Numbered from the stretch's first letter, positions 8,319-39,739 are shown. The stretch: DNA of 39,739 nucleotides from Flavobacteriales bacterium (GCA_022763165.1 JALEGO010000631.1:1-39739); one strand, 5' to 3'. The notes: generated from the sequence alone by a model not told the origin. A program made the numbers and translations.

Positions 8319-8670
8319 ATTGCTGTTTTCAGAAGGTAACAGTTGAATTTGCTAAATATTGTACGTCAGGATTTTACTAAAGGTTACAACATTTTAGAAT
8401 AAGATTTTAACAACTGTTGATATAAATGAAGTACTCAATATAATTTACGAAAAATTCACGAAAAAGAGAAGATAATTTTGAATATATTAACAAAATGAAA
8501 TTTAACATACACTGAAACGTTATTCCATTTATGCCTTAATAAACCAACTAAACTTTTGATTTAATATTCAAACCCAGAATCTAATTTTACTTTTTTATTA
8601 AAAAAACCAATTATTGCTTTTTCAGGTAGAAAATTGTATTACTTTTGCACTCCGAAAAGAACATTATGTC
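8319..8670. other. 352-bp AT-rich divergent intergenic region
   Basis: This region separates the leftward receptor operon from the rightward protease gene. I see no open reading frame with coding character and no RNA fold I recognise. It holds the protease promoter at its right end and, around 8471-8478, another isolated TAATTTTG on the plus strand without a well-placed -33 TTG. Confidence 0.6.
8614..8647 (+). promoter_or_regulatory. Bacteroidota-type promoter of the C10 protease gene
   Basis: TTG at 8614-8616, 23 bp, then TACTTTTG at 8640-8647, an exact match to the TAnnTTTG -7 consensus. The expected transcript start lies near 8652-8655, leaving a short leader before the ATG at 8671. The position excludes the upstream in-frame start at 8614. 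Confidence 0.65.
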
Positions 8671-11316
8671 ATGAAAAAGTCATTAAAAGCCTTATTTCTT
8701 CTTGCACTATTAAGCATCAATTTGGTGCACGCAAGTAACGTACCAACGAGCGATGTCCTCAAAATAAGTGAGAACTATTATGCTAATGTCTCACCTACCC
8801 GAAACACTTCGTTTGTTGGGAACATTGCATTGACAATTTTTGAGAAGCAATCTCGATCAAATAACAGTCCATTGTTCCATGTTGTGAATGTAAATAATGA
8901 TGGGTTTGTGGTTGTGGCTGCTGATAATGAAGTTAAACCTATTCTGGGCTATTCAACAAATGGTCAATTCGATCCAAATAACATTCCTGTTCAATTGCAA
9001 GATTTGATCAATTCATGGCAAGAAGGTATTGAGCGTGAAATCAAAGACGCTATTCCGGCAAGCACCTATACAAGTAACCTTTGGACTCAAGCACTTCAAG
9101 GGTCCTTCTCAGGTTCTAGAAGTGGATCTGTAGCTCCTTTAACAACCACTACATGGAACCAATGGCCTCGTTATAATAAATTCTGCCCAGGAGGAGCTCC
9201 TACTGGCTGCGTTGCTACTGCCGTTGCGCAAATTATGAAATACCACAACCACCCTCCTCAAGGTTCTGGATCCCATTCTTATACACACCCTGATTACGGA
9301 ACGCTTTCTGCAAATTTCGGAGCTACGAGTTACGACTGGAGTGTTATGCCAAACAAATTGACTTCTTCGAGCTCTCAAAACGAAATAGATGAAGTAGCAA
9401 AAGTAAATTATCATATCGGTGTGAGTTTGGATATGGATTATGGACCAAATGGAAGCGCAACTTACAGCTACAAAGTAAGAAACGCCTTAAAAGATCACTT
9501 CAATTACAAAAACTCAGTTTCTTTAAAGTATCGTTACAGCTATTCTCTTTCAAGCTGGAAGAACATGCTTAAAAATGAATTGGATAACAACAGAGTTGTT
9601 TACCACTCCGGCTTTTGTCCTGATCCAGCTGCAGGACACGCCTTTGTGATTGACGGGTATGACACCAATGACATGTTTCATGTCAACTGGGGTTGGGGAG
9701 GCTCTTACAACGGTTATTTTGAAATCAATAACTTAAACCCTGGATCAACATACACATGGAATCAATCACAAAAAGCGATCATTGGCATTGAACCTATTCA
9801 AATGACACTTGATTTGAAACTTGCAGATGAAACACTTTATCATAGGGACACAACATATAATGATACAACATTGGTTTGGGATACGGTATTGTTACAATTC
9901 GACACTGTTTTAAACCCAATTACAGAGCACTTAGACACCTTTTCTTTTGACACAAGTATTGTAGACACTTTGGGATTGGTACAAGATTTTTCACTTACCA
10001 CGACAATTGGCAATTGGGGAAACATCTTTTATAACGGAAGATTTATGGCAGCAATCTGTGATTTAAATAATGTAATCATTGACACTGTTGAAATTTCTGA
10101 CACAGTGGGTATATCAGCCTACGATTACATGACCATTGTTTTTGAATCAAAGGCCAAATCATTGATGCCTGGAGATTATAAATTCTCAATCTTCTGGGAT
10201 GACAATGGCAGTTGGCAGCTAATTGACCAAGATTACTATTATAATGGAATACATTTTTACAACAATGGTGGTCAAACTGAACCTGAAGGTATATTGTCAT
10301 TTGGTTCTATTTCCATCAACCCAGACCCAATCTATGCGGATACTGCTTTTCAGGTAGAAATAATAGTCAAGAATAATCAAAACACGTCTTGGACAGGTTT
10401 GGTTTCTGCAGATTTTCACGAACTCAATGGAGACTGGTTAGATGAAATTGGGCATGTCAGCCGAACGTATCAACCATACGAAATAGATACTATCGTATTC
10501 AACGCCCCAGCTACAGATCTAGATCTTGGAGGATATCTAATAGGTATTTGGAACCAAGAACAAGGTTCAAATTGGGAAATGGTTAAAGAGGGATATTTCA
10601 AAAACAATAGGGAAGTACAAATCGTAGAAAAGGAATTTGCACTTGTACCTGATTCATACGAGGACAATAACAGCCCTCAAAATGCATATGATTTCTACAC
10701 CACTAGCTTATTCAACAACAACGCTGCGCTGATTTATACAAACAGTACTAACATTCATAATGAGCTTGATCAGGATTACTTCCGAGTAAATTTTGAGGCT
10801 GGATATACATATGAAATCACTCCAATCCTATTTGATGCTAGCGCACCAAACGCTCCAAAGGATTACACCCTTGAGGCGGTATTCTCATATGGTGTCAACA
10901 CGAACCCGACACTTCAGTATTATGATAATGAGGAGGTGGGAAGTATATCAATTGATGGAGACGGGTTTGTCTCATTTCATGTACAACCTTACTTCCAAAA
11001 TGCAATGGGAACATATAATCTTCAATTCCAAATCACAAGAACACCTAATTTCACTAATGATCTTTCAGCCGTGAACAGTTCCGAAAGTGTGAACATTTAC
11101 CCCAATCCAAATAACGGTCAATTTACCATTGCAAATATTTCCCAATGGAATTCAGCAAGTATCTTTGACGCTAATGGCAAATTGGTTTATACATTTGCCA
11201 ATCTTAAAAATGAATTGATTGAGGTGAATCTTTCAGACAAACTAAATAAAGGAATCTATTCGATCCGACTGGAATCTGAAGATAAAGTTTACAACGAAAG
11301 GTTTATCATAAAATAA
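8671..11316 (+). CDS. Secreted C10-family cysteine protease (streptopain-like), T9SS cargo
   Basis: This is an extracellular papain-fold endopeptidase of 881 residues. The frame opens at 8614, but the promoter lies inside that extension and the Met at 8671 begins a clean signal peptide (MKKSLKALFLLALLS...VHA), so 8671 is the start. Residues about 23-150 resemble the C10 propeptide (FVVVAADNEVKPILGY). The catalytic core runs from about 155 to 390, with nucleophile Cys180 in GGAPTGCVATAVAQIMKYH, His323 in AGHAFVIDGY, and the MFHVNWGWGGSYNGYF segment typical of streptopain and interpain. Beyond it come an Asp-Thr-rich linker (about 385-435), two beta domains, a possible pre-peptidase-like domain near 660-780, and a type-A T9SS sorting domain (IYPNPNNGQFTI ... 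GIYSIRL). It is monocistronic. It probably acts as a secreted digestive protease; its substrate is not evident. Confidence 0.93.
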   Translation: MKKSLKALFLLALLSINLVHASNVPTSDVLKISENYYANVSPTRNTSFVGNIALTIFEKQSRSNNSPLFHVVNVNNDGFVVVAADNEVKPILGYSTNGQFDPNNIPVQLQDLINSWQEGIEREIKDAIPASTYTSNLWTQALQGSFSGSRSGSVAPLTTTTWNQWPRYNKFCPGGAPTGCVATAVAQIMKYHNHPPQGSGSHSYTHPDYGTLSANFGATSYDWSVMPNKLTSSSSQNEIDEVAKVNYHIGVSLDMDYGPNGSATYSYKVRNALKDHFNYKNSVSLKYRYSYSLSSWKNMLKNELDNNRVVYHSGFCPDPAAGHAFVIDGYDTNDMFHVNWGWGGSYNGYFEINNLNPGSTYTWNQSQKAIIGIEPIQMTLDLKLADETLYHRDTTYNDTTLVWDTVLLQFDTVLNPITEHLDTFSFDTSIVDTLGLVQDFSLTTTIGNWGNIFYNGRFMAAICDLNNVIIDTVEISDTVGISAYDYMTIVFESKAKSLMPGDYKFSIFWDDNGSWQLIDQDYYYNGIHFYNNGGQTEPEGILSFGSISINPDPIYADTAFQVEIIVKNNQNTSWTGLVSADFHELNGDWLDEIGHVSRTYQPYEIDTIVFNAPATDLDLGGYLIGIWNQEQGSNWEMVKEGYFKNNREVQIVEKEFALVPDSYEDNNSPQNAYDFYTTSLFNNNAALIYTNSTNIHNELDQDYFRVNFEAGYTYEITPILFDASAPNAPKDYTLEAVFSYGVNTNPTLQYYDNEEVGSISIDGDGFVSFHVQPYFQNAMGTYNLQFQITRTPNFTNDLSAVNSSESVNIYPNPNNGQFTIANISQWNSASIFDANGKLVYTFANLKNELIEVNLSDKLNKGIYSIRLESEDKVYNERFIIK

Positions 11317-13013: not shown

Positions 13014-15893
13014 CTAATCAAGTATTTCAATCCTCTTAACAATAGGCTGATCCTTATCTTGACCTACAATTTTCAAGAAATAGATACCTGCTGGAAGCGA
13101 ACTATTCAAAACAACATTCTTGGACATCAATTGGCTTTGATACTCAATTTGACCTAGCGCATTGACAATTTCCAAACTAGTGATAAAATCACTTGACTGG
13201 ATATTGATTTGCCCTTTGCTTGGGTTGGGGTAAACCGAGATGAAAGGTTTGTTCAGTTGATCATTTTCTCCACCTTCAAGAATAATAATGCTTTTATTGT
13301 TAGTACCTACTTGTAAAGGATAGCCACTTTCATTATTTGCAGAATGCACCACTATCTCCAAGCTTAAAGTGTCTACAACAATCTCAGAAGCTCCAGTTAA
13401 GTCATCCGCTGTTACAATTTCTAAGGCTCCTATTTGACCATTTCCCGCACTCGCAATTTGATCTGTTTTGGTAATCGCTATATCAATCTTGCCTTGAGCT
13501 GTGAAATTGGTATCCACATCTATTCTTGTGGATGGAGAACCAATCCAAGAAGTAGTATAGCTCAATGTCATGTTGCTGGTGTCGACCAAATCGTTATTGT
13601 AAAGAATAGAGAAGGCCAAACCATAAATACTATCAGCCGGCAAAGTGTTCGTACCAAGATGGATGGGTATAATCAACGATTGATTTTCACCTACTGTATC
13701 AAAATTTGGCCAATCAAAAAACAATACTGGATCAGTAGCACTTGCTAAATCATCGGTTTTATTATGTGTAAGGCCATAGTTCAACAAGACTGCATTGAGA
13801 TCATTAAGATCGACCAGTCCATCCCCATTACAATCAGCATGTTTTTGATTCAAGCCGCTGAGGAATTGACCAGACCAATCTCCAGCAGCTTGTGGAAGCC
13901 AATTGACTGATGCATTAGGGCGAGTCAAACCTGCACTATTGTAAGCAACACCAATATTCAACACATCAACAATATCCGCTACACCATCAGAATTCGCATC
14001 TCCTGGCCACACGGAGTCCAAAGGAACAGTGCACACCTCAATAGAGTCGACATCAAAACAGCCATGAAGAGTATCTTGAACAGTCAAGGTATATACTATG
14101 GTATCTGAAGGACAAGAAATTGGATTTGCAATAGAATCATCATTCAAATCAATGTCTGGAGACCAAGTATAAGTAGTGTTTGGCAAAGTATTGAAGGGAC
14201 CAATCTGAACACAACCACCAATACTTACGCAAGCATCAGGTCCAGCATCAGCCTGAATATTATAACATTCAATATAAATGGAATCCACATCAACACAGCC
14301 ATTATCATCGGTTACGCTAAGAACATAAGTTGTATCACAAGCAAACCCAATTGGATTCCCAATAGTAGCGTCATTTAGCAGTGAGGCTGGAGACCATGCG
14401 AAATTATATGGGGGTGTACCTCCAATAGCTGGATTGAGCCCTCCGAGAACGAATGTTCCAGGACAAATAGTATCATCTGCGCCTGCATCAGCTTGCAGTG
14501 AGGTCGCACAGGACACGTAAATACTATCAGTTCCTGTACAGCCATTGGCATCTGTCACACTCACGGTGTACATTGTATCACAGCCGGATGTAATTGGATT
14601 TGCAGTGTTCACGTTAGTTAAGGACCATGATGGCGTCCAGAGGTAAGAGTACGGAACCACTCCACCAACAGCAGTAGGGCTTCCTCCAAGTTGTACAGTT
14701 CCACCAGAACATACATTTGGGGAACCTGCATCCACCGTAATTCCAGAAACGTGGACAAAGTAACTTTTTGACGTATGCCCAACATAAGGACAGACAGAAT
14801 CACTTACCGTTAATGTAAATGATAGAGTAGTGTCATTTGCTGGTGCAGTAAACGAAATATCTACCAAAGCAGAATTACCACTGTAGTTTACATTGAAATT
14901 GGCACCTTGTATTCCGCCATCCCAAATCACTCCTATATTATCAGGATCTGGATCGCTTACGCCAATAGTTAAATTAACCTGAGAATTGGCACAAACTGCA
15001 GTATCAACATTTGAAAAATTCGAATATGAAGTATCAACTCCAGACAAAACTGGGGAGGCATTCACACAATTAATGATAAAATACACCATATCTCTTCGAA
15101 TGAAACCAATTTTCTGCCCATTTCGGTACTCCTCCACCTCCACGGCCATATTGGATACCACCAAATTGTTTGATGTAAAGCAGACCAAACCCGTCAAGGA
15201 ATCAATGCTAAAATTACTAGCACTGTTAGCAGCGATAGGTGAGCTAGTCGAATGACCAGGTGTATAGGAAATTGGTGTGTTTAACGCTGTCAGAGATGGC
15301 ACTACTTTGTAAACTAAAGAATCTCCATCAACATCAAATGCTTTCAAGTTGAGGCAGTTTTGAACAATTCTGCAATTGATAATATCCGGATCTTGCAAAA
15401 AGCTTGGAGAGTTATTGCATATATTATTATCAATCACAACGTTCAAATATGTATTCTGAGACTGCGGATTATTAATATTTGTTATCGATGGTAGCCTACA
15501 ACAATTGGAATATTCAACCAACCAATCGTTTGAGACACCACTCAATACTATCGTATCTTTAAAAGTATTTTTAATCGTTCCTGGATATGCAGATCCCAAA
15601 TTTGAACAAACCGTGGTCACCGCTGTACATGTTTTTGTGATTTCCATGGTATCTGTAAGGTAGAGATAGACATTGTTTGAAACACCCAAGCTACTTGAAG
15701 AAACTGAAACCAGTTGGCTATCGGCCAGAAAAGTGGCAGAGCACTCCCAGTAAAGATCTAAGGTGATTTCGTACGTGTTGCTTCCTAAACACCGATAAGT
15801 CATTTCACCTCCATTGAGATGTGACGCATGAACATTGAATGATACTATTAAACAAATTGCGCTAAGAATGTGAATTAGTCTAGTCATAAACAT
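13014..15893 (-). CDS. Large T9SS surface protein: SprB repeats, EF-hand pair, cohesin-like domain
   Basis: This is a 959-residue exported protein. A signal peptide covers about 1-24; MTRL at 15887 is an equally good start. Residues about 25-280 form an N-terminal domain with a HLNGGEMTYRCLGSNTYEI opening, a motif I associate with large Bacteroidota surface proteins. Three SprB-like repeats lie at about 387-460, 467-540 and 547-620, each ending xVTDxNGCxxxDSIYV. Two dockerin-type calcium loops follow, GDANSDGVADIVD (631-643) and DCNGDGLVDLNDLN (687-700), split by a conserved RPNASVNW insert. A cohesin-like beta domain fills about 723-870, and a type-A T9SS sorting domain ends the protein (VYPNPSKGQINI ... 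GIYFLKI). The segment from the EF loops to the end is paralogous to the C-terminal half of the gene at 17490-19154. It is divergent from a helical-protein gene that starts at 16028. Confidence 0.85.
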   Translation of the reverse strand: MFMTRLIHILSAICLIVSFNVHASHLNGGEMTYRCLGSNTYEITLDLYWECSATFLADSQLVSVSSSSLGVSNNVYLYLTDTMEITKTCTAVTTVCSNLGSAYPGTIKNTFKDTIVLSGVSNDWLVEYSNCCRLPSITNINNPQSQNTYLNVVIDNNICNNSPSFLQDPDIINCRIVQNCLNLKAFDVDGDSLVYKVVPSLTALNTPISYTPGHSTSSPIAANSASNFSIDSLTGLVCFTSNNLVVSNMAVEVEEYRNGQKIGFIRRDMVYFIINCVNASPVLSGVDTSYSNFSNVDTAVCANSQVNLTIGVSDPDPDNIGVIWDGGIQGANFNVNYSGNSALVDISFTAPANDTTLSFTLTVSDSVCPYVGHTSKSYFVHVSGITVDAGSPNVCSGGTVQLGGSPTAVGGVVPYSYLWTPSWSLTNVNTANPITSGCDTMYTVSVTDANGCTGTDSIYVSCATSLQADAGADDTICPGTFVLGGLNPAIGGTPPYNFAWSPASLLNDATIGNPIGFACDTTYVLSVTDDNGCVDVDSIYIECYNIQADAGPDACVSIGGCVQIGPFNTLPNTTYTWSPDIDLNDDSIANPISCPSDTIVYTLTVQDTLHGCFDVDSIEVCTVPLDSVWPGDANSDGVADIVDVLNIGVAYNSAGLTRPNASVNWLPQAAGDWSGQFLSGLNQKHADCNGDGLVDLNDLNAVLLNYGLTHNKTDDLASATDPVLFFDWPNFDTVGENQSLIIPIHLGTNTLPADSIYGLAFSILYNNDLVDTSNMTLSYTTSWIGSPSTRIDVDTNFTAQGKIDIAITKTDQIASAGNGQIGALEIVTADDLTGASEIVVDTLSLEIVVHSANNESGYPLQVGTNNKSIIILEGGENDQLNKPFISVYPNPSKGQINIQSSDFITSLEIVNALGQIEYQSQLMSKNVVLNSSLPAGIYFLKIVGQDKDQPIVKRIEILD

Positions 15894-15912
15894 ATACTCG
15901 TTGGTTACAATA

Positions 15913-15944
15913 CAAATATTCGAAATCTATGCTTTCCAAAAAAA
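15913..15944 (-). promoter_or_regulatory. Putative promoter of the 13014-15893 gene
   Basis: Read on the minus strand: TTTTTTTG (15944-15937), 16 bp, then AATATTTG (15920-15913), one mismatch from TAnnTTTG. The same TTTTTTTG / AATATTTGTA arrangement, with 15 bp between, precedes the paralogous gene at 19154, which strengthens the call. Confidence 0.5.
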
Positions 15945-16027
15945 TACAATTACTTTAATTTGTGGGTTATTATAACTAAATTTAAATATCTAATTAATTA
16001 TTATATAGTTTTTTATACTTAAAATTT

Positions 16028-16834
16028 GTGGATCATATTATATTCGAACATATTAGAAAATTTGACAAAAAAGATTGGAAGTCTTTCAAAACATTTGTTT
16101 CATCACCTTACTTTAACAAAAACAAGAGAATCGTACAATATGTCGAATTCCTGGCTTTAAACCCAAGTTTAAATGACAAAAATGCACTTTTTCGTGCTGC
16201 ATTTCCTGAAAGAAAACATTATAACGATTCAAGTTTAAGATCCATTCACAGCGAAATCCTTCAGCTCATTCTGAAGTTTTATCAAATTGAAAAACTGAAT
16301 GACTCAGATAAAGCGACATCATTAGATATTCTTGTACAAAAGGATCAGTTTAGAACTTACCAATTGATCAAAAACCGATGGCTGAAGCGCTCCGAGAATG
16401 GACTGCAAGATGAAAAATTCTTTCGCTCAAAATTAGAAATGAGCAAGATTCACTATGAATTCTTAAGCAGGAAAGAACAAAGGAAAAGCGAGGTTCTCGA
16501 TCAGGCGTTGTTAGATGTCAACTACAACTTAGACCAGCTCTATTTAGTAGAAAAACTACAATTGCTTGCCGAAATGCAAAATAGAGGCATCTCAGAAAAT
16601 GAGTCCATTACTCTTCTTGAACTCAAGACTATTCTCAACAAACCCATCAACAGAAACAATCAATTCATCCAAATTTTCACTGAAATCCTGACACTTTTAA
16701 GCGATCACGCTGAAAAATCATTTTTTGGGGTTTACGAACTCATCAAAAAGGAAAATCAAAAATTCTCAAAAAAGGAATTAAAGGATATGTTTGAATACAT
16801 TCAAAACTTTTGTATCCGAAAAATCAATCAATGA
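16028..16834 (+). CDS. 5' part of a helical TPR-like protein interrupted by an in-frame TGA
   Basis: Residues 1-268 of a protein whose intact paralogue is encoded at 19324-20694. Shared features are FVSSPYFNKNKR versus FLKSPYLNTNNK near residue 25 and KDMFEYIQNFCIRKIN versus KNMYVFLMNFCVKQIN at the end. The reading frame is closed by TAG at 16007, and only GTG at 16028 can start it, since the next Met is near residue 138; the paralogue also uses a non-AUG start at the same aligned place. There is no signal peptide, and helix and Lys/Glu content are high, so it is likely cytoplasmic. The frame ends at TGA 16832-16834 but stays open in the same frame to 17422, and the paralogue aligns across without a gap. 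This is therefore a nonsense-mutated gene, a read-through gene or a sequencing error. I do not recognise a named family. Confidence 0.75.
   Translation: MDHIIFEHIRKFDKKDWKSFKTFVSSPYFNKNKRIVQYVEFLALNPSLNDKNALFRAAFPERKHYNDSSLRSIHSEILQLILKFYQIEKLNDSDKATSLDILVQKDQFRTYQLIKNRWLKRSENGLQDEKFFRSKLEMSKIHYEFLSRKEQRKSEVLDQALLDVNYNLDQLYLVEKLQLLAEMQNRGISENESITLLELKTILNKPINRNNQFIQIFTEILTLLSDHAEKSFFGVYELIKKENQKFSKKELKDMFEYIQNFCIRKINQ
16832..16834 (+). other. In-frame TGA dividing the helical-protein gene
   Basis: The codons read ATC AAT CAA TGA AAT GAT CAT. The paralogue has INANNTKYY at the aligned place, so the TGA aligns with an Asn codon and no bases are gained or lost. Both halves keep coding character. 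TGA serves as a normal stop elsewhere in the window (for example at 20692-20694 and 34738-34740). Confidence 0.85.
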
Positions 16835-16846
16835 AATGATCATTTT

Positions 16847-17422
16847 TTGGAAGAACTGTACAAAATCTACAAATACCAACTTGAAGAAGAAATCAACGTA
16901 GAGAATAACAAAATGAGAATTAGTGACTTTAAGAATATTGCCACATTAGGAATTAGACTTAAAGATTTAGATTGGGTAAGGCATTTTACAAACGAACATA
17001 AAGACAAACTCGACCTGAGGTATCAACAAAGTGCTGAGGCCTACAATTTGGCAAGAATCGATTTTTACAAAGAAGAATACAGCGCTGCTCGAAAAAAATT
17101 AGTCAATGTTGAATATGCAGATATTCATTATGAACTTGGAAGCAGAGCCTTACTTATAAAAATCTATTTTGAAACTACGGATTCAGAATTGATGCTACAG
17201 AACCTAAATTCATTGAAGCTTTTTGTCAGAAGATCAAGATTAATCTCCGATTATCAAAAAAGAATCTATTTAAACTTCTTGAAATGCATTCACAAAATGA
17301 ACCGACTCATTGATGGCGATAAAAGAGTCACCGAAACGCTCGACCATTTGATATATGAAGACAAAGCCATTGCAGACTATACTTGGGTTCGCAAGAAGTA
17401 TGAAGAAATAAAAAGCCTCTGA
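16847..17422 (+). CDS. 3' part of the interrupted helical TPR-like protein
   Basis: This is the continuation of the 16028 frame after the TGA, about 190 residues. It matches the C-terminal half of the paralogue at 19324-20694 throughout: ISDFKNIATLGIRLKDLDWV versus LGDFKNIATVGLRLKELDWV, then AYNLARIDFYKEEYSAARK versus SYNLARICFVRSNYKDALK, and SDYQKRIYLNFLK versus SDYQKSLYLNFLR. The helix pattern (AxNLAR..F....Y..A...L) resembles tetratricopeptide repeats, which suggests a protein-binding scaffold. If translated separately, a start would have to be at 16847 (TTG read as Met) or at ATG 16913. The good conservation on this side of the stop suggests that the break is recent or that it is read through. 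The stop codon lies inside the terminator stem. Confidence 0.7.
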   Translation: MEELYKIYKYQLEEEINVENNKMRISDFKNIATLGIRLKDLDWVRHFTNEHKDKLDLRYQQSAEAYNLARIDFYKEEYSAARKKLVNVEYADIHYELGSRALLIKIYFETTDSELMLQNLNSLKLFVRRSRLISDYQKRIYLNFLKCIHKMNRLIDGDKRVTETLDHLIYEDKAIADYTWVRKKYEEIKSL

Positions 17423-17440
17423 TTACTCAGAGGCTCTTTT
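17411..17440. terminator. Bidirectional intrinsic terminator between convergent genes
   Basis: A 9-bp perfect stem AGCCTCTGA / TCAGAGGCT (17414-17422 and 17427-17435) with a TTAC loop. It is followed by CTTTT on the plus strand and by TTTTTATTTC on the minus strand. It can end both the helical-protein gene and the convergent gene whose stop is at 17490. Confidence 0.85.
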
Positions 17441-17489
17441 AACCTATTGCTTTATTAGATTGATTTAAATCATTTAAACCAAGTAGACT

Positions 17490-19154
17490 TTATCTCTTTA
17501 CAACACGATGATGCAAAGTATTCGACCCACTACTGATCTCCAAGAAATAAAGACCCGCATCCACTTCCTCAAGATTGCAAACACCTTGATTCATATATTC
17601 TGATCTCTTTACAACCTTACCATTTAGATCCATTAAAGACCAGCTAAAAGTTTCTTGCGATGCAATATTTAGAACACCACTTGTCGGATTTGGAAAAACT
17701 TTAAAGAGCGCTTCAACATTAGAACTCAAACTAAGTGGCGCACCTTCCTGCGAAACAGTAACAGAATCAGAGACTACATTAACATCAACCACACTTTCAT
17801 CAGCGCGGATCAGCTTAACATTGGTTATGGTGAATTTTAAACTCTCATAGATATTCGTTTTACCAGCGATATCGTCTGTAGTAAAAATGTCAATCTCAGC
17901 AATTTCACCGAAACCTGATTTGTTTACTTTATCAGTTCTGGTCAAAGCTATGTCTAATTGACCATCCTGGTACAGATTCTTATCAAGAGCAATCATATCA
18001 TTGGCGTTAGAAATATTTCCCAGCCAAGAATTCCCATAACTCACAGCAACTGATGATGAATCCACCAAAGCCGGATCATAACTCAAACTGAAGGCTATTC
18101 CATACACGCTATCCGCAGGCAACACAGACTCTCCAAGTTTTACTTTTATATTTACCCAGCTATTGGTATCTACGGTATCCGGAGATGCTTCAAGAATCAA
18201 ATTCACCGCATTCTGATGAAAAGCCGGAGCATCACCTTTAAACCATGTTTTTCCATAATTCAATAAAATCGCCTGTGCATCTAAAACATTTATCGTTCCA
18301 TTACCATCGCAATCCCCATGCTTCTTGCTATAACCATTCGCAAAAGGACCATTTTGATTCCAAATTCCACTCTGCGAGTATTGGCCAACCCAATTCAAAC
18401 TCGCATTTGGTCTCGGCCAATTTTGATAACTGCTTTCCCCATAAGCAACACCTATATTCAGCAAGTCAAAAACGTTGGCCACCTTATCAACATTACAGTC
18501 TCCCGGAAACACAGAGTCATGCGGAAGTATGTGAGTAAATAAATTCAGGCAACCGTTACTATCGTATATATGATACTCATTACACCCCGGCCCTAGATAT
18601 TGTATGTAAACCGTATCGTTGGCAGATGTCACTGATTGATTGCCCTGTTGAAAACCATTACAATCTTCAACAAAAACAACATACCCAGGAGCCCCTCCTG
18701 TCAAACCCAATGTGATATCACCACCATAAGGGGTATGATATGGGTTATAGTCAATGACATCTATTGTTAGAGGGTTTGAACACCCAGAATTCCCTTGAAC
18801 TGCGAACAACACTAACACCGTGTCGATCACAAAAAACCCATTAATGGAATCCCCATAACAGTATTCATAAAATATAGAATCCAAACCCACAAAGCCAGTA
18901 GGAGGAGTATATTGAAATTCCCAAGGCGCCAAGTTCACAAGAGCACCACCCTCTGCTGTAATATTTGCACCATTGCTGGACCAAATAGAGCAGGCGGCCG
19001 CAGAGGATGTATCATCATTCAATCCAATATTTACATTTATAGGTGTATTCATTTGAGTAATGAAGTGGTCATCGCCACTCCATGTAGCATTAGCATTCTT
19101 AGCAAATAGAACTATCATTAATGCCCATACTAAAGTGAGTAATTGTTTTCTCAT
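17490..19154 (-). CDS. T9SS surface protein with Ig-like, EF-hand pair and cohesin-like domains
   Basis: This is a 554-residue exported protein. The frame is open to 19229, but the likely promoter (19204-19234) lies in that stretch and MRKQLLTLVWALMIVLF at 19154 is a clear signal peptide, so 19154 is the start. Residues about 25-120 look like an Ig/cadherin-like repeat (TPINVNIGLNDD ... QYTPPTGFVGLDSIFYEYC). Then come two dockerin-type loops, GDCNVDKVANVFD (218-230; the usual Asp/Gly positions are partly replaced) and DCDGNGTINVLDAQ (281-294), joined by the conserved RPNASLNW insert. A cohesin-like domain lies at about 315-465 (LPADSVYGIAFSLSYDPALVD) and a type-A T9SS sorting domain at 480-554. 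It is paralogous to the C-terminal half of the 13014-15893 product. It is divergent from the helical-protein gene at 19324, the same arrangement as the first copy. Confidence 0.85.
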   Translation of the reverse strand: MRKQLLTLVWALMIVLFAKNANATWSGDDHFITQMNTPINVNIGLNDDTSSAAACSIWSSNGANITAEGGALVNLAPWEFQYTPPTGFVGLDSIFYEYCYGDSINGFFVIDTVLVLFAVQGNSGCSNPLTIDVIDYNPYHTPYGGDITLGLTGGAPGYVVFVEDCNGFQQGNQSVTSANDTVYIQYLGPGCNEYHIYDSNGCLNLFTHILPHDSVFPGDCNVDKVANVFDLLNIGVAYGESSYQNWPRPNASLNWVGQYSQSGIWNQNGPFANGYSKKHGDCDGNGTINVLDAQAILLNYGKTWFKGDAPAFHQNAVNLILEASPDTVDTNSWVNIKVKLGESVLPADSVYGIAFSLSYDPALVDSSSVAVSYGNSWLGNISNANDMIALDKNLYQDGQLDIALTRTDKVNKSGFGEIAEIDIFTTDDIAGKTNIYESLKFTITNVKLIRADESVVDVNVVSDSVTVSQEGAPLSLSSNVEALFKVFPNPTSGVLNIASQETFSWSLMDLNGKVVKRSEYMNQGVCNLEEVDAGLYFLEISSGSNTLHHRVVKR

Positions 19155-19203
19155 AACTAATTTATTAAACGTTGTTTTCATTTTTTGGAAGCTTTTCACT
19201 CTA

Positions 19204-19234
19204 CAAATATTTACATACTCTAGCTGCAAAAAAA
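19204..19234 (-). promoter_or_regulatory. Putative promoter of the 17490-19154 gene
   Basis: Minus strand: TTTTTTTG (19234-19227), 15 bp, AATATTTG (19211-19204). It matches the promoter-like pair upstream of the paralogue at 15893. A transcript would start near 19197, downstream of the longest possible start codon (19229) and upstream of 19154. Confidence 0.5.
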
Positions 19235-19287
19235 TTACAAATTTTAATATATGTGTCTTAAATATTTCAAATAAAAAATCATTAATA

Positions 19288-19319
19288 TTTGAATTACAAT
19301 ATTTTATGTTCTAATTTTG
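19288..19319 (+). promoter_or_regulatory. Promoter of the second helical-protein gene
   Basis: TTTG at 19288-19291, 20 bp, then TAATTTTG at 19312-19319, an exact TAnnTTTG match. The predicted transcript start falls within a few bases of the TTG start codon at 19324, so the mRNA may be leaderless. Confidence 0.65.
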
Positions 19320-19323
19320 TATC

Positions 19324-20694
19324 TTGAAAAATTCCAATTTATATAGTTTATTATCCAGTTTCAATAAAGAAACCTGCAAAAAATTTCAAGATTTCTTAAA
19401 ATCTCCCTACCTAAACACGAATAACAAAGCCACACAATTATTCGAGCTCTATCTCAAAACACCAGAAAAGAAACTAGAAAAACCCTTCCTGCACAACAAA
19501 CTCTATCCGAATGAAGATTTTAAGGATGACAAACTACGTTTAGTCATTAGCCGTCTATACAATCTAGCTTTAGAATTCCTCAGATTAGAGGGATTCAGAC
19601 GAACAAAAACCTCTCAACATCTCCTGCTGCACGAACTAAATCTTTTAAATCAATATAAGATCTTTGACCAACAATATCGTAAAGCCAACAACACGAGTCT
19701 TCTTGAAACCCTACAACTAGAAGAAGCAAACTTCTACCTGGCAACAAAAATTAACCCAAGACAATCCACAAACAACCTACAGGAACTTAGCAACTCCATT
19801 GATGATTACTTCCTGTTTCAAAAACTTAAGTATTCCTGTGAACTGTACAACAGAAAACAAATTCTAGATAAAGAATATGACTTTTCATTTCTAGAAAACA
19901 TCTTACAATATTTACACAATCACCCCCCAAAATATCCTCCAACCTATTTATACTATCAACTTCTCAAACTCATCAGAGCGAATGAAGAACCTCAATTCTT
20001 CCTGATCAAAAAGTTACTCCAAACCCAATCCAAAGAAGTTCACAAAAAGGAATTAAAGAATATGTACGTGTTCTTGATGAACTTTTGCGTAAAACAGATC
20101 AACGCCAATAACACCAAATACTACGTTGAGCTTTTTGACATATATAAATCACTGATTAAAAATGAGATTATTATTGAAGAAGAAACCATAGGCCTGGGAG
20201 ACTTTAAAAATATAGCGACTGTTGGACTGAGACTGAAAGAACTGGACTGGGTGCAAGAATTCACAGAACAATACACATCATATTTAAATGAACAGCATCA
20301 AGAAAGCGCAAAATCTTATAACCTTGCGCGAATATGTTTTGTCAGATCAAATTATAAAGATGCTCTAAAACTGCTCCGAAACGTTGATTACAGCGATGTG
20401 TATTTTGAGTTAGGCTCCAGAGTGCTTTTGCTTAAAGTTTACTATGAACAGGAGGATATCGATCTGTTTCCCGCTCAAATGCAGTCATTGAGAACCTATT
20501 TATCCAGATCAAATGAAGTTTCCGATTATCAGAAAAGCCTTTATCTTAATTTTCTCAGATTAATAAAGAAACTGTTTCGGTTTAAAGGAGGTAATAAAAG
20601 AGGCCTAAAAGAATTTAAGGAAGAACTTAAACAAACAAGTAACGTGGTGGACCTTGAGTGGATTAAAGAGAAAGCCATGGAATTTAATTTTTGA
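19324..20694 (+). CDS. Helical TPR-like protein of unknown function (intact copy)
   Basis: This is a 456-residue protein without signal peptide or membrane segment, rich in Leu, Lys, Glu and Asn, and predicted to be almost entirely helical. An in-frame TAA at 19312 and the absence of any Met codon before about residue 248 leave TTG at 19324 as the only plausible start. Conserved with the copy at 16028-17422 are FLKSPYLNTNNK near residue 25, the FCVKQIN segment near 255, DFKNIATVGLRLKELDWVQ near 295, and TPR-like helices (SYNLARICFVRSNYKDALKLL) near 340-410. I do not recognise a named family. A TPR-type scaffold or regulator is an inference. It is divergent from a T9SS surface-protein gene with 169 bp between the start codons, as in the first copy, which suggests a functional link between the two proteins. 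Confidence 0.8.
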   Translation: MKNSNLYSLLSSFNKETCKKFQDFLKSPYLNTNNKATQLFELYLKTPEKKLEKPFLHNKLYPNEDFKDDKLRLVISRLYNLALEFLRLEGFRRTKTSQHLLLHELNLLNQYKIFDQQYRKANNTSLLETLQLEEANFYLATKINPRQSTNNLQELSNSIDDYFLFQKLKYSCELYNRKQILDKEYDFSFLENILQYLHNHPPKYPPTYLYYQLLKLIRANEEPQFFLIKKLLQTQSKEVHKKELKNMYVFLMNFCVKQINANNTKYYVELFDIYKSLIKNEIIIEEETIGLGDFKNIATVGLRLKELDWVQEFTEQYTSYLNEQHQESAKSYNLARICFVRSNYKDALKLLRNVDYSDVYFELGSRVLLLKVYYEQEDIDLFPAQMQSLRTYLSRSNEVSDYQKSLYLNFLRLIKKLFRFKGGNKRGLKEFKEELKQTSNVVDLEWIKEKAMEFNF

Positions 20695-35462: not shown

Positions 35463-38400
35463 ATGAATCGAATTTTTATTGGCATCATTTTTATGATGAC
35501 AACCTTTTCCGTAAATCTTTATTCCCAAGATTTTGATTTAGACGGAGTCCCTGACGCAATTGATGTGGACGATGATAATGATGGTTTGTGTGATTCTGTG
35601 GAACTTTCCTCTGCATTTGTCAATTATGTGAGAAACTGCGATGCTCCTGTTTCAGGAACACATCGCATAGGACCGACCCAATTTGTTTTTAACAACTACG
35701 GTCCTGGGGTTCCTATCGACAGTGGTGGCTCGGGTTCTAGCACATGTCCTGGAAGTACAGGTTGGAGGCAATTCAGATGTAGAACTGATCTTGGAGGATC
35801 GCATTACATATTATATTCTTTCCTCCCAGGCGGTGATAGTCTGAGCTTTACAACAGATATCTCTGGAACCTTATGTCACGGTTTTGAAGTGACCTTAGCC
35901 GATATCGATAGAGATGATGGCCTTTATTTTGTTGCATACTCCGGAGGCTCCATTATCTCAGCTGATAGTATCTGGAAGGGACCTGGAATCAAAGATTCTT
36001 TAAACTTTTACTGGGACACAACAGGCTCCAGTGGATCTTTTACTGATTCATTATTTCAAACACGTTGGTACTTTAACAGTGGCACCTGTGTTGACTCTAT
36101 TCAAATGAAGTTTTATTCAAATAAAACTACTTGCCAAACCAGTGTAAATAATCTTCTGAGATTTAGGAGTATGGTTCTAGATTCTGATGGAGATGGATTA
36201 TCGGATCAATTTGATACTGATGCTGATGGAGATGGATGTTATGATGTGCTAGAGGCTTTTTTAGACCCTGCTCTTGATTTGGATGGAGATGGAATTGCAG
36301 GTGATGGGATTGAAACTGTCGATGGAAGTGGGCTTCCTACTATTATGGGTGGTTCATGCCAAGCTGTCAATTCATTTACCTACAGAGATAGCAATATTAT
36401 ATCCTCAGCATGTGATACTATACTACCTGGAAATGAACTCCTTAATATTAATGAAGATAACAGTGGTTCTGTTGCAGTATTAGCGAACAATAGCGATATC
36501 AATGGAGACTCAATGTTCGTAACAGTTGTAAATCCAACAACTGCTGCAGGCGCATCAGCCGTTTTCCAAATCGCTGATAGTACTATTTTATATACTCCTG
36601 TTGGAAATTTTTGTGGGCAAGATGAAGTATACTATGAAGTTTGTGACAGTACGATTCCCGTATTGTGTATAGTAGATACCATCTTTGTGAATGTTGCTTG
36701 TGTCAATGATACTCCTACAGGTGGCAACGAGAATTCTGCAACTTTAGAGGACTTTGTATCAGGCAATGTCAATCTTCTTTCCAATAATGCTGATGTTGAC
36801 AATGACTCTTTAGTTCTTGTAATCAACCCTATTTCGCCTAACGGTGGAACGATCTCTTCTCCTTCAGCTGGTGTGATTGTATACAACCCTACTCCCAACT
36901 GGGACGGAATCGACACCATCATTTACCAAGTCTGTGATACTGTGACCCCCGCTCTATGTGTTACGGATACCTTGTTTATGACTGTTATTCCAAATAATGA
37001 TCAACCACAAATTAATAATGATAGTGCAGTAGTATCAGAAGATAATACCATCATAATCGATCCATTAATTAACGATTCAGATTCAAACGATGTTTTAGGA
37101 GGAATTGACAGTACTTCTGTGGATACTATCCCCTCTACTGGGCCATTCAACGGTATGGTTTCTATTGATCCTGTGACGGGCCAACTGACATATACACCCA
37201 ATTTAAATTTTAATGGCTTAGATAGCTTCAGAATTGAAGTTTGTGATACTGGTTATCCATTGCCTGCCTTGTGCAGAAATTCACTGGTTTATATCGAGGT
37301 CCTACCATTGCCAGACCCTCCTATGAGCGCACCAGAATATGTCACCATTGATGAGGATAGCAGCCTTACTTCATTTGATGTTTTGTCAAATAACATTGAT
37401 CCAGAAGGCGATTCTATCATTGCAGGTGCATATCCGGGAACCTCTACACAAGGTTTTCCTGTCGGTCAGAATCCTGATGGAACTTTGGACTATTCACCCC
37501 CAAGCAATTGGTATGGAATGGATACGATTGTCATAAATGTTTGCGATACAACTGGTCTTTGCAACACTGACACCGTATTCATTACGGTTACTCCTGTAAA
37601 TGATGCTCCCATTACGACTAATGATACTTTATTCATTATTCAAAGTGGTGATACTCTAAATGCGTGCGTTAGTTTTAGCGATCCTGACCTGCCTGAAGAT
37701 AGCCTTGTTTGCAATGTAATAAGTGGTCCAATTAATGGCACTTGGACAAGTACTTCCTTCGATTGCTTTTCTTATATTCCAGATTCTGGATGGATAGGAA
37801 ATGACACGATAACAAAGGTTATTTGTGACACCGCTGGACTGTGCGATACTAGTATCATTGTAATATCGTCACAATTAAATCCTATACTTCCTCCAAGCAT
37901 TTCGGATGATAGCGTTTCTATGAACGAAGATGATACGCTGTCTTACTGTTTGACGATTACTGATCCCAATCTTCCGAATGACAGTGTTTACATAAGTTCA
38001 ATCGGTAATCCAAATAATGGCATAACGGACAGTATCAGCCCATATTGCATTAACTATATCCCAAATACCAATTGGTTTGGTTTAGACACAATAATGTTTG
38101 TGGCTTGTGATACTTCTGGACAATGCGATACAGCATGGCTTATTGTAAATGTCCTGAATGTCTCAGATGCTCCTGTGAATGGAAATGAAAATATTACGAT
38201 TGATGAAGACAGTGTAATATCTTCATTAGATTTAACAATCAACAATTCAGACCCAGACGGAGATTCAATTCTTGTCAATTTGCCAATTACTTCTTCTGCG
38301 GGCTCTAACATTGTTATCAATGCAGATGGCACCATTGGTTATACACCTCCTACAAACTTCCATGGCATGGATACGGTCTGGTACATGGTTTGCGACACCA

Positions 38401-39739
38401 CCATTCCACAACAATGTGTACAAGACACTTTGTTCATTACTTTGAACCCTGTTAATGATCTTCCAATAGTTAATAATGATTCTGTTTGGGTAGATGAAGA
38501 CGGTCAGATGGTGTTTAACCCATTGACCAATGATACTGATTCAAATGACGTTCTAGGAGGAATTAATATTTCATCCTTAGATACAGTTCCTGGTTCAGGA
38601 CCATTCAATGGCAACATCTCAATTGATCCAGCAACTGGAGATATTACCTACATTCCAAATGCTAACTTTAATGGCCTAGATAGCTTCCAAGTAATAGTAT
38701 GCGATACCGGCTTTCCTCAACCACCACTATGCGATACATCTTGGACGATCATTGTGGTGAATTCTATTAATGATATTCCAGTAGCATTGAACGATACGAA
38801 TCAAGTTGACTACAATGGATCCACAACTATTGATGTTCTTAACAATGATACAGATGACGATGGAGATTCATTGAGCGTATCCATTTTTGGCAATCCTATT
38901 AATGGAACAGCCACCATTGTAAATGGCATGATTACATATAGTCCCGACTCTGGGTTCTGTGGTTGGGATGTGTTCTTATATCTTGCATGCGATGCTAGTG
39001 ATTGTGACACTGCACTTGTTTTAGTGGAAGTAGTTCCTGCAGACACCGATGGAGACGGCATCGTAGATCACATAGATGGATTCTCTGATTTTGATGGAGA
39101 CGGCCTAGCAAATTATCTTGACACTGATAGTGACAATGATGGAATCTCTGACGCCATAGAAGGTCCTGGTGATTTATCAGATATCTGCAATCAAGTTCTA
39201 GCTGACACTGATGGTGATCTCTCTCCAGACTATCTAGACAATGATAGTGATGGAGATGGTTTAGGCGATCAGTTGGAGGTTACAGATTCAATCTTAGACA
39301 CAGATGGCGATGGGCTCCTTGATTTCAGAGACCCTGACAGTGACAATGACGGCATTGGCGATTTGGCTGAATATGATGCAGATGAAAATGGTGTTGTTGA
39401 TGATTGTGATAATGATGGAACACCAGATTGGCTAGACGCTGATGAATGCACAGTTCAAGAATTAGTGATTCCGGAAGCCTTCTCACCTGATGGTGATGGG
39501 AAAAATGATCTTTTAGAATTCCCAGGCTTATCGAATTTCGAGTCTAACTCTCTTTTAATCTTTAATCGATGGGGAAATAAAGTATTTGAAGCATCGCCCT
39601 ATAACAATGATTGGGATGCGATTTCTAGTGGAAATCTCAACACCGGTTCTGGGAAGGTGCCTGCAGGAACCTATTATTATGTCTTGGATTTAGGAGATGG
39701 AAGTGATCCCAAGTCAGGATATATTTATATAAGTTATTA
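35463..39739 (+). CDS. Giant T9SS type-B adhesin with nine Ig/cadherin-like repeats (3' end cut by window)
   Basis: One uninterrupted frame of 1425 codons from ATG 35463 to the last base of the window. A signal peptide MNRIFIGIIFMMTTFSVNLYS begins the protein; a calcium-binding thrombospondin-3-like stretch (DLDGVPDAIDVDDDNDG) follows at residues 24-44. Nine repeats of about 95 residues run from about 320 to 1190, each with a VNDxP opening, a middle FNGxDSF or WxGxDT motif and a VCDT ending. More DxDxDGxxD calcium loops lie at about 1193-1330. The last 90 residues are the gliding-motility-associated type-B sorting domain (LIFNRWGNKVFEA, AGTYYYVLDL, SGYIYIS). The final two bases are TA, so the stop codon probably falls at the next base. 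It is presumably displayed on the surface by T9SS and stiffened by calcium; its ligand is unknown. Confidence 0.9.
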   Translation, partial: MNRIFIGIIFMMTTFSVNLYSQDFDLDGVPDAIDVDDDNDGLCDSVELSSAFVNYVRNCDAPVSGTHRIGPTQFVFNNYGPGVPIDSGGSGSSTCPGSTGWRQFRCRTDLGGSHYILYSFLPGGDSLSFTTDISGTLCHGFEVTLADIDRDDGLYFVAYSGGSIISADSIWKGPGIKDSLNFYWDTTGSSGSFTDSLFQTRWYFNSGTCVDSIQMKFYSNKTTCQTSVNNLLRFRSMVLDSDGDGLSDQFDTDADGDGCYDVLEAFLDPALDLDGDGIAGDGIETVDGSGLPTIMGGSCQAVNSFTYRDSNIISSACDTILPGNELLNINEDNSGSVAVLANNSDINGDSMFVTVVNPTTAAGASAVFQIADSTILYTPVGNFCGQDEVYYEVCDSTIPVLCIVDTIFVNVACVNDTPTGGNENSATLEDFVSGNVNLLSNNADVDNDSLVLVINPISPNGGTISSPSAGVIVYNPTPNWDGIDTIIYQVCDTVTPALCVTDTLFMTVIPNNDQPQINNDSAVVSEDNTIIIDPLINDSDSNDVLGGIDSTSVDTIPSTGPFNGMVSIDPVTGQLTYTPNLNFNGLDSFRIEVCDTGYPLPALCRNSLVYIEVLPLPDPPMSAPEYVTIDEDSSLTSFDVLSNNIDPEGDSIIAGAYPGTSTQGFPVGQNPDGTLDYSPPSNWYGMDTIVINVCDTTGLCNTDTVFITVTPVNDAPITTNDTLFIIQSGDTLNACVSFSDPDLPEDSLVCNVISGPINGTWTSTSFDCFSYIPDSGWIGNDTITKVICDTAGLCDTSIIVISSQLNPILPPSISDDSVSMNEDDTLSYCLTITDPNLPNDSVYISSIGNPNNGITDSISPYCINYIPNTNWFGLDTIMFVACDTSGQCDTAWLIVNVLNVSDAPVNGNENITIDEDSVISSLDLTINNSDPDGDSILVNLPITSSAGSNIVINADGTIGYTPPTNFHGMDTVWYMVCDTTIPQQCVQDTLFITLNPVNDLPIVNNDSVWVDEDGQMVFNPLTNDTDSNDVLGGINISSLDTVPGSGPFNGNISIDPATGDITYIPNANFNGLDSFQVIVCDTGFPQPPLCDTSWTIIVVNSINDIPVALNDTNQVDYNGSTTIDVLNNDTDDDGDSLSVSIFGNPINGTATIVNGMITYSPDSGFCGWDVFLYLACDASDCDTALVLVEVVPADTDGDGIVDHIDGFSDFDGDGLANYLDTDSDNDGISDAIEGPGDLSDICNQVLADTDGDLSPDYLDNDSDGDGLGDQLEVTDSILDTDGDGLLDFRDPDSDNDGIGDLAEYDADENGVVDDCDNDGTPDWLDADECTVQELVIPEAFSPDGDGKNDLLEFPGLSNFESNSLLIFNRWGNKVFEASPYNNDWDAISSGNLNTGSGKVPAGTYYYVLDLGDGSDPKSGYIYISY

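Follow-up and report, generated by a model that had tools for sequence, protein, structure and literature searches.

Divergently encoded all-helical proteins as candidate private regulators of type IX secretion system surface proteins in Bacteroidota

A 39,739-nucleotide stretch of DNA from Flavobacteriales bacterium (GCA_022763165.1 JALEGO010000631.1:1-39739; here called the window, with positions counted from its first letter) contains, at 13014-20694, a divergent gene pair that is present twice in tandem. In each pair, a leftward gene for an exported protein bearing a type IX secretion system (T9SS) tail (here, the partner) is transcribed away from a rightward gene for a helical protein (here, HEL). 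On the basis of the conserved pairing and of direct repeats between the two genes, we consider it probable that HEL binds DNA as a private, locus-specific regulator of its own gene and of its T9SS surface protein. Less firmly, we lean toward a broader reading, i.e., that the HEL family consists of uncatalogued transcription factors that have expanded to as many as about 50 members in a genome, each serving as the private one-gene regulator of a T9SS surface protein and having evolved its own recognition sequence, and that they act through a helically phased pair of sites linking the control of regulator and target. The features of the two loci are as follows.

13014..15893 (-): partner 1 gene, encoding an exported T9SS cargo protein of 959 amino acids (aa)
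about 13050-13235 (-): partner 1, T9SS tail
about 13293-14012 (-): partner 1, dockerin-like EF-hand pair plus cohesin-like region
15913..15920 (-): partner 1 promoter, -7 box AATATTTG, read on the minus strand
15937..15944 (-): partner 1 promoter, -33 box TTTTTTTG, read on the minus strand
15954..15965 (+): locus 1, site B TTTAATTTGTGG, 66 bp from site A and just upstream of the partner -33 box
16020..16031 (+): locus 1, site A TAAAATTTGTGG, overlapping the GTG start codon of HEL 1
16028..17422 (+): HEL 1 gene, helical protein, 464 codons including one TGA
17490..19154 (-): partner 2 gene, encoding an exported T9SS cargo protein of 554 aa with a Big_9-like N-terminal part
about 17493-17699 (-): partner 2, T9SS tail
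about 17757-18518 (-): partner 2, dockerin-like plus cohesin-like region
19204..19211 (-): partner 2 promoter, -7 box AATATTTG, read on the minus strand
19227..19234 (-): partner 2 promoter, -33 box TTTTTTTG, read on the minus strand
19253..19264 (+): locus 2, site B GTGTCTTAAATA, matching site A at 9/12 positions with a spacing of 66 bp; weak on its own
19319..19330 (+): locus 2, site A GTATCTTGAAAA, overlapping the TTG start codon of HEL 2
19324..20694 (+): HEL 2 gene, intact helical protein of 456 aa with a TTG start
HEL 2 layout: N-terminal helices at residues 1-95 (predicted to bind DNA; candidate recognition helix at 68-93), followed by an alpha-solenoid body resembling tetratricopeptide repeats (TPR)

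All four genes lie where the first-pass annotation had placed them, and its description of two tandem divergent pairs holds for the layout, the partner domains, the paralogy, and the upstream element. The HEL 1 and HEL 2 products are full-length paralogues (about 31-33% identical). The part of the description that fails is the open frame at 16028-17422, where codon 269 is an in-frame TGA (16832-16834); since the frame runs on and both halves are conserved, the copy has either become a pseudogene recently or reflects an error in the assembly. The upstream element, TTTTTTTG-N16/N15-AATATTTG, precedes both leftward genes as had been reported. It looks like an ordinary Bacteroidota -33/-7 promoter, and AATATTTG resembles the general Bacteroidota -7 element.

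The pairing is directly observed throughout the source genome, which carries 16 HEL copies (mostly 23-43% identical to each other) and 20 genes with the dockerin/cohesin-like region. Every HEL gene with a readable, identifiable 5' neighbor (11 of 11) adjoins a divergent dockerin/cohesin-like T9SS gene. Among the other five, four have a divergent open reading frame (ORF) cut at a contig end, and the fifth, on C284, has a divergent ORF of 195 aa. Four partner-type genes (C226, C176, C381, and one on C648) lack a HEL.

Conservation of the pair across the phylum is likewise observed. HEL matches occur at 311 places in GTDB genomes, mainly in Saprospiraceae, Chitinophagales, and Flavobacteriales. 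Many Bacteroidota genomes hold 12 to 51 copies (e.g., 51 in G302, 48 in G428, 39 in G337, and 15 in the cultured Phaeodactylibacter luteus). The distribution is patchy (16 of 396 genomes), and HEL was not found in 30 close relatives. Neighbors were scored at 80 GTDB loci that are the best matches to the HELs of the source genome, and the pairing fraction applies to that part of the family; 73 of the 5' neighbors were readable, and five cut by contig ends were set aside. The dockerin/cohesin-like partner domain is carried by 51 of the 73 readable 5' neighbors, with a T9SS tail only in 9 more, compared with a single 3' neighbor and 5 of 529 background ORFs (Fisher p about 1e-20 and 1e-50, respectively). 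Homologs of the helical protein thus do not lie mostly beside unrelated genes, an outcome that the first-pass annotation had named as speaking against a functional pair; it had also understated the scale of the arrangement, which is genome- and phylum-wide and far beyond chance. A T9SS or exported protein of another kind is the more frequent partner in G428 and G302. HEL has diversified together with the conserved C-terminal region of its partner (Mantel r = 0.51, n = 63; source genome, r = 0.54, p = 0.025), as measured in a mirror-tree test that was repeated with corrected bounds because the first run had used too-wide domain bounds for two proteins.

The region between the paired genes contains direct repeats. 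In aligned orthologous intergenic regions, ATCGTGGAAT occurs twice, once in the middle of the region and once before the HEL start. A systematic scan near the HEL start returned 23 direct repeats versus 3 inverted ones among 122, with no excess of the inverted type. One copy (site A) covers either the bases immediately preceding the HEL gene or the gene's first bases, while the other (site B) lies 63-66, 75-77, 86, or 98-100 bp upstream. At locus 1 of the window, sites A and B are 10/12 identical with a spacing of 66 bp. The sequence of the repeat differs from locus to locus, as is directly seen.

In the main test, the A zone of each locus was compared with its own B zone and, at matched positions, with those of the other loci, so that generic promoter signal was removed. 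Comparison with shuffled DNA was judged insufficient, and the position-matched windows, HEL-free divergent regions, and held-out loci were added. The own-locus excess was largest at 63-66 bp (z = 8.6; 16 loci over the threshold versus 0.8 expected). It recurred at four further spacings (z = 6.1 at 74-77, 3.2 at 52-55, 2.6 at 84-87, and 2.8 at 95-98 bp) and was lower elsewhere (z = -0.3 at 68-71 and 0.3 at 79-82 bp, both off-phase, and 1.2 at 57-60, 0.8 at 46-49, and 2.0 at 89-92 bp). Per-base peaks near 45, 54, 66, 75, 85, 99, and 107 bp follow the DNA helical repeat, with a best-fitting period of 10.5 bp; the helical phasing is an observed property of the repeats. Fifty held-out loci gave z = 4.1 at 63-66 bp and z = 5.2 for the combined ladder (off-phase, z = -0.4). 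A 63-66-bp repeat scoring 19 or more was found in 13 of 123 scans and in 0 of 134 scans of HEL-free divergent regions. At the loci with clear repeats, the distance from site B to the partner promoter is nearly constant, with the -33 box about 15-20 bp and the -7 box about 41-50 bp from the start of B. These distances place B near -55 of the partner, a position that appears activator-like, and a protein bound at site A would be expected to repress HEL.

The first-pass annotation had suggested that the helical and exported proteins work together, for example in regulation, folding, or secretion. The conserved pairing bears out such cooperation, and regulation appears favored over folding or secretion because of the locus-specific, helically phased direct repeats between the genes. 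It is unlikely that HEL is instead a cytoplasmic chaperone or export-targeting factor for its T9SS partner, with the divergent orientation merely balancing expression. The strict pairing and the co-diversification with the C-terminal region of the partner would both suit such a role, and peptide binding is common among TPR-like solenoids. However, that role leaves unexplained both the phased repeats and the near-constant divergent placement of the partner, and some HEL partners are T9SS proteins without the shared domain or exported proteins of other kinds.

A regulatory role for HEL leads to the question of which protein reads the repeats. Since the repeats differ between loci, their reader must differ too, and HEL, being the locus's own cytoplasmic product, is the candidate. 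The similarity of operators between loci tracks that of their HELs (Mantel r = 0.35, p = 0.0003, n = 33), also when close orthologues are left out (r = 0.24, p = 0.0008). After removal of whole-protein identity, the correlation is highest at HEL residues 61-90 (partial r = 0.15, p = 0.012), a segment that contains the helix expected to enter the DNA groove. We regard as rather improbable the alternative that the repeats are real operators read by other factors (i.e., unlinked regulators or RNA) and that HEL has another role. The absence of any match between HEL and curated DNA-binding domains speaks for it. Against it, every locus carries a repeat of its own and encodes no locus-specific cytoplasmic product other than HEL; the position of site A is tied to the HEL start, and loci with more similar HELs have more similar repeats, the agreement being highest at residues 61-90.

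HEL is an uncatalogued, cytoplasmic, all-helical protein family. No Pfam or NCBIfam family covers it; TPR evidence amounts to weak matches, including one segment against consensus TPRs. AlphaFold2 models HEL with confidence as an all-helical solenoid (predicted local distance difference test score [pLDDT], 94.9) for which no close relative was found among solved structures (no Foldseek match with an E value below 0.001), and sequence and fold searches of the PDB with HEL and with its N-terminal part returned generic solenoids or nothing significant. The N-terminal 122 residues, predicted alone, again form a confident model (pLDDT, 93.5). In a profile search with 73 HEL members, no match to HTH_3, SARP, LuxR, the helix-turn-helix (HTH) or substrate domains of LysR, or curated HTH domains was obtained, and Pfam reports no PF00486 match in HEL. 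We also compared the HEL profile (hhalign) with eight OmpR-type domains from the same genome. Residues 18-67 align to the first winged-helix helices of these domains with a score of 20.7, compared with 11.0 for the reversed profile and a maximum of 18.2 for 150 column-shuffled decoys (P = 0.003; hhalign probability, 11%). This likeness of the HEL N terminus to an OmpR-type winged HTH is suggestive, not proof.

Several observations weigh against HEL as the DNA-binding regulator. The family matches no curated HTH family. Foldseek finds nothing significant for the N-terminal part, its best geometric match being the ToxR/TcpP winged helix (51 columns; root mean square deviation [rmsd], 1.8; E = 8.7). 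The signal at the recognition helix is modest and comes from one region among several that were examined, and the agreement between operator and HEL similarity could also stem from common descent of the entire locus; for these two reasons, the peak at 61-90 counts as support only. Only some of the loci, about one-fifth to one-third, show repeats of the strength described above, and the window's second locus has a weak one. Many divergent neighbors in two distant genomes (G302 and G337) lack a T9SS tail.

It is highly improbable that the repeats represent promoter or leader elements of a generic kind shared by HEL genes: a loose TTGT/TCGG look is common to the sites, with TTTG in some, but such elements would be expected to score equally in position-matched windows from other loci, which fall far below the own locus (z = 8.6). 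Barely credible is the idea that the pairing passively records segmental duplications without a functional link, since, despite tandem arrays on C345, C439, C361, and C549, copies that are mostly 23-43% identical have kept their partners and orientation while their 3' neighbors have not been kept, and the pairing is phylum-wide. A single recent duplication confined to one genome, the other adverse outcome foreseen in the first-pass annotation, is rejected by 16 copies at this level of divergence here and up to 51 elsewhere.

For HEL as a private regulator, we infer the following circuit. The HTH-like N-terminal part of HEL would recognize a short locus-specific sequence, two copies of which form a direct repeat between the divergent genes, on one face of the DNA helix. 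Bound at site A, in its own start region, HEL would shut down its own gene; bound at site B, just upstream of the -33 box, it would control the promoter of the divergent partner from an activator-like position at about -55. The two bound sites may touch through a DNA loop, and the TPR-like alpha-solenoid body may sense a signal, dimerize, or assemble a complex. If the circuit is correct, it would bear on how bacteria that encode dozens of T9SS surface proteins select the ones they display: it would name the missing regulators of several hundred such genes and supply their operators, assign a function to a large uncatalogued protein family, and provide well over a hundred paralogous regulator/operator pairs as a natural set for a DNA recognition code.

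The proposed circuit resembles that of LysR-type regulators, in which the regulator is likewise divergent from its target, with sites at the regulator start and upstream of the target promoter, and in which autorepression is expected. HEL differs in being an all-helical protein of 460-490 aa without a LysR domain, in its locus-specific direct repeats 65-107 bp apart, in its T9SS surface-protein targets, and in its up to 51 private copies per genome. The domain order recalls RRNPP/Rgg-PlcR and SARP/MalT-type proteins, where a DNA-binding N terminus precedes a TPR-like helical body; for HEL, the DNA-binding part is predicted, no HTH_3, SARP, or LuxR domain or sequence relation was detected, and HEL is not known to have a peptide ligand. 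OmpR/ToxR-type winged helices (PF00486) share with HEL the weak profile alignment at 18-67 and the 51-column low-rmsd match to ToxR/TcpP, but the HEL model has no beta strands there and neither match is significant database-wide. Bacteroides capsule loci are numerous paralogous surface-structure loci, each with private paralogous UpxY/UpxZ regulators, and UpxY acts on RNA polymerase as an antiterminator. HEL loci are similarly many, each with its own paralogous regulator; unlike UpxY, HEL appears to act through DNA sites. The HEL pair may thus be viewed as a case of dedicated divergent regulation by a protein of an uncatalogued family, with a circuit like that of LysR-type systems and a domain order like that of HTH-TPR proteins, the defining domains of neither being found. 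No description of the pair was found in the literature, most subscription journals being outside the search.

Both leftward products begin with a signal-peptide-like segment and carry a T9SS tail; each also has a cohesin-like domain and two EF-hands that flank an RPNASxNW insert. Por_Secre_tail is above the cutoff in both (E = 3e-10 and 4e-12) and in 56 of 58 partners, and the T9SS itself is represented in the genome by 16 PorP/SprF family matches over the cutoff. The cohesin-like region reported for both products is seen in both; the Pfam cohesin match is weak (E = 0.014) and limited to the second, and it reaches an E value of up to 0.001 in 3 of 58 partners, so the cohesin label is weakly supported by Pfam. 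EF-hand-like calcium loops are visible in the partners, of which 9 of 58 match Pfam Dockerin_1 at E values up to 0.001, and a match to the ScaH dockerin has E = 0.0067. Like surface adhesins, the partners carry immunoglobulin (Ig), cadherin-like, PKD, or SprB repeats ahead of the conserved C-terminal part. They also resemble T9SS type A cargo with dockerin and cohesin domains in combining Por_Secre_tail with dockerin-like repeats. Unlike in the cellulosome, the dockerin-like and cohesin-like regions lie in one protein, and the cohesin similarity is weak. Related HELs at three loci lie beside a tiny exported protein of 167-169 aa with little beyond a signal peptide and a T9SS tail (L105:5405-5914, L109:4401-4904, and L118:7212-7715). 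In G302/G337, some HELs have a divergent neighbor of ~90-110 aa that resembles a single fibronectin type III domain and has no obvious signal peptide (L183:7704-8039, L184:10741-11073, L187:8432-8767, and L190:11342-11611).

Two HEL genes at L131:5237-12278 converge tail to tail, and a separate divergent partner adjoins each of them. HELs broken by a single in-frame stop also occur elsewhere (G427:C291, G428:C84, G430:C163, G337:C26, and G302:C1:122983), which suggests ongoing birth and death of the family.

An ATG start is rare in the HEL genes of the source genome, which use GTG and TTG, with ATT at the aligned start position in three copies. An ATG near the upstream stop is present in 9 of these 16 HELs versus 75 of 88 other ORFs (p = 0.013). 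Site A overlaps the HEL start codon at several loci; the odd starts include those at 16028 and 19324 in the window and further ones at L011:2766, L014 near 3128, L015 near 2070, and L013 near 9929. This overlap explains some odd starts better than an IF3-like AUU autoregulation, which was dropped as a general account because other genomes use ATG in most copies.

Elsewhere, the window encodes an alpha-amylase bearing a T9SS tail (83-2398), a family C10 peptidase with a Spi-type inhibitor domain and a T9SS tail (8614-11316), and a large cadherin/Ig-repeat protein with a CHU_C tail that extends to the window end (35463-39737).

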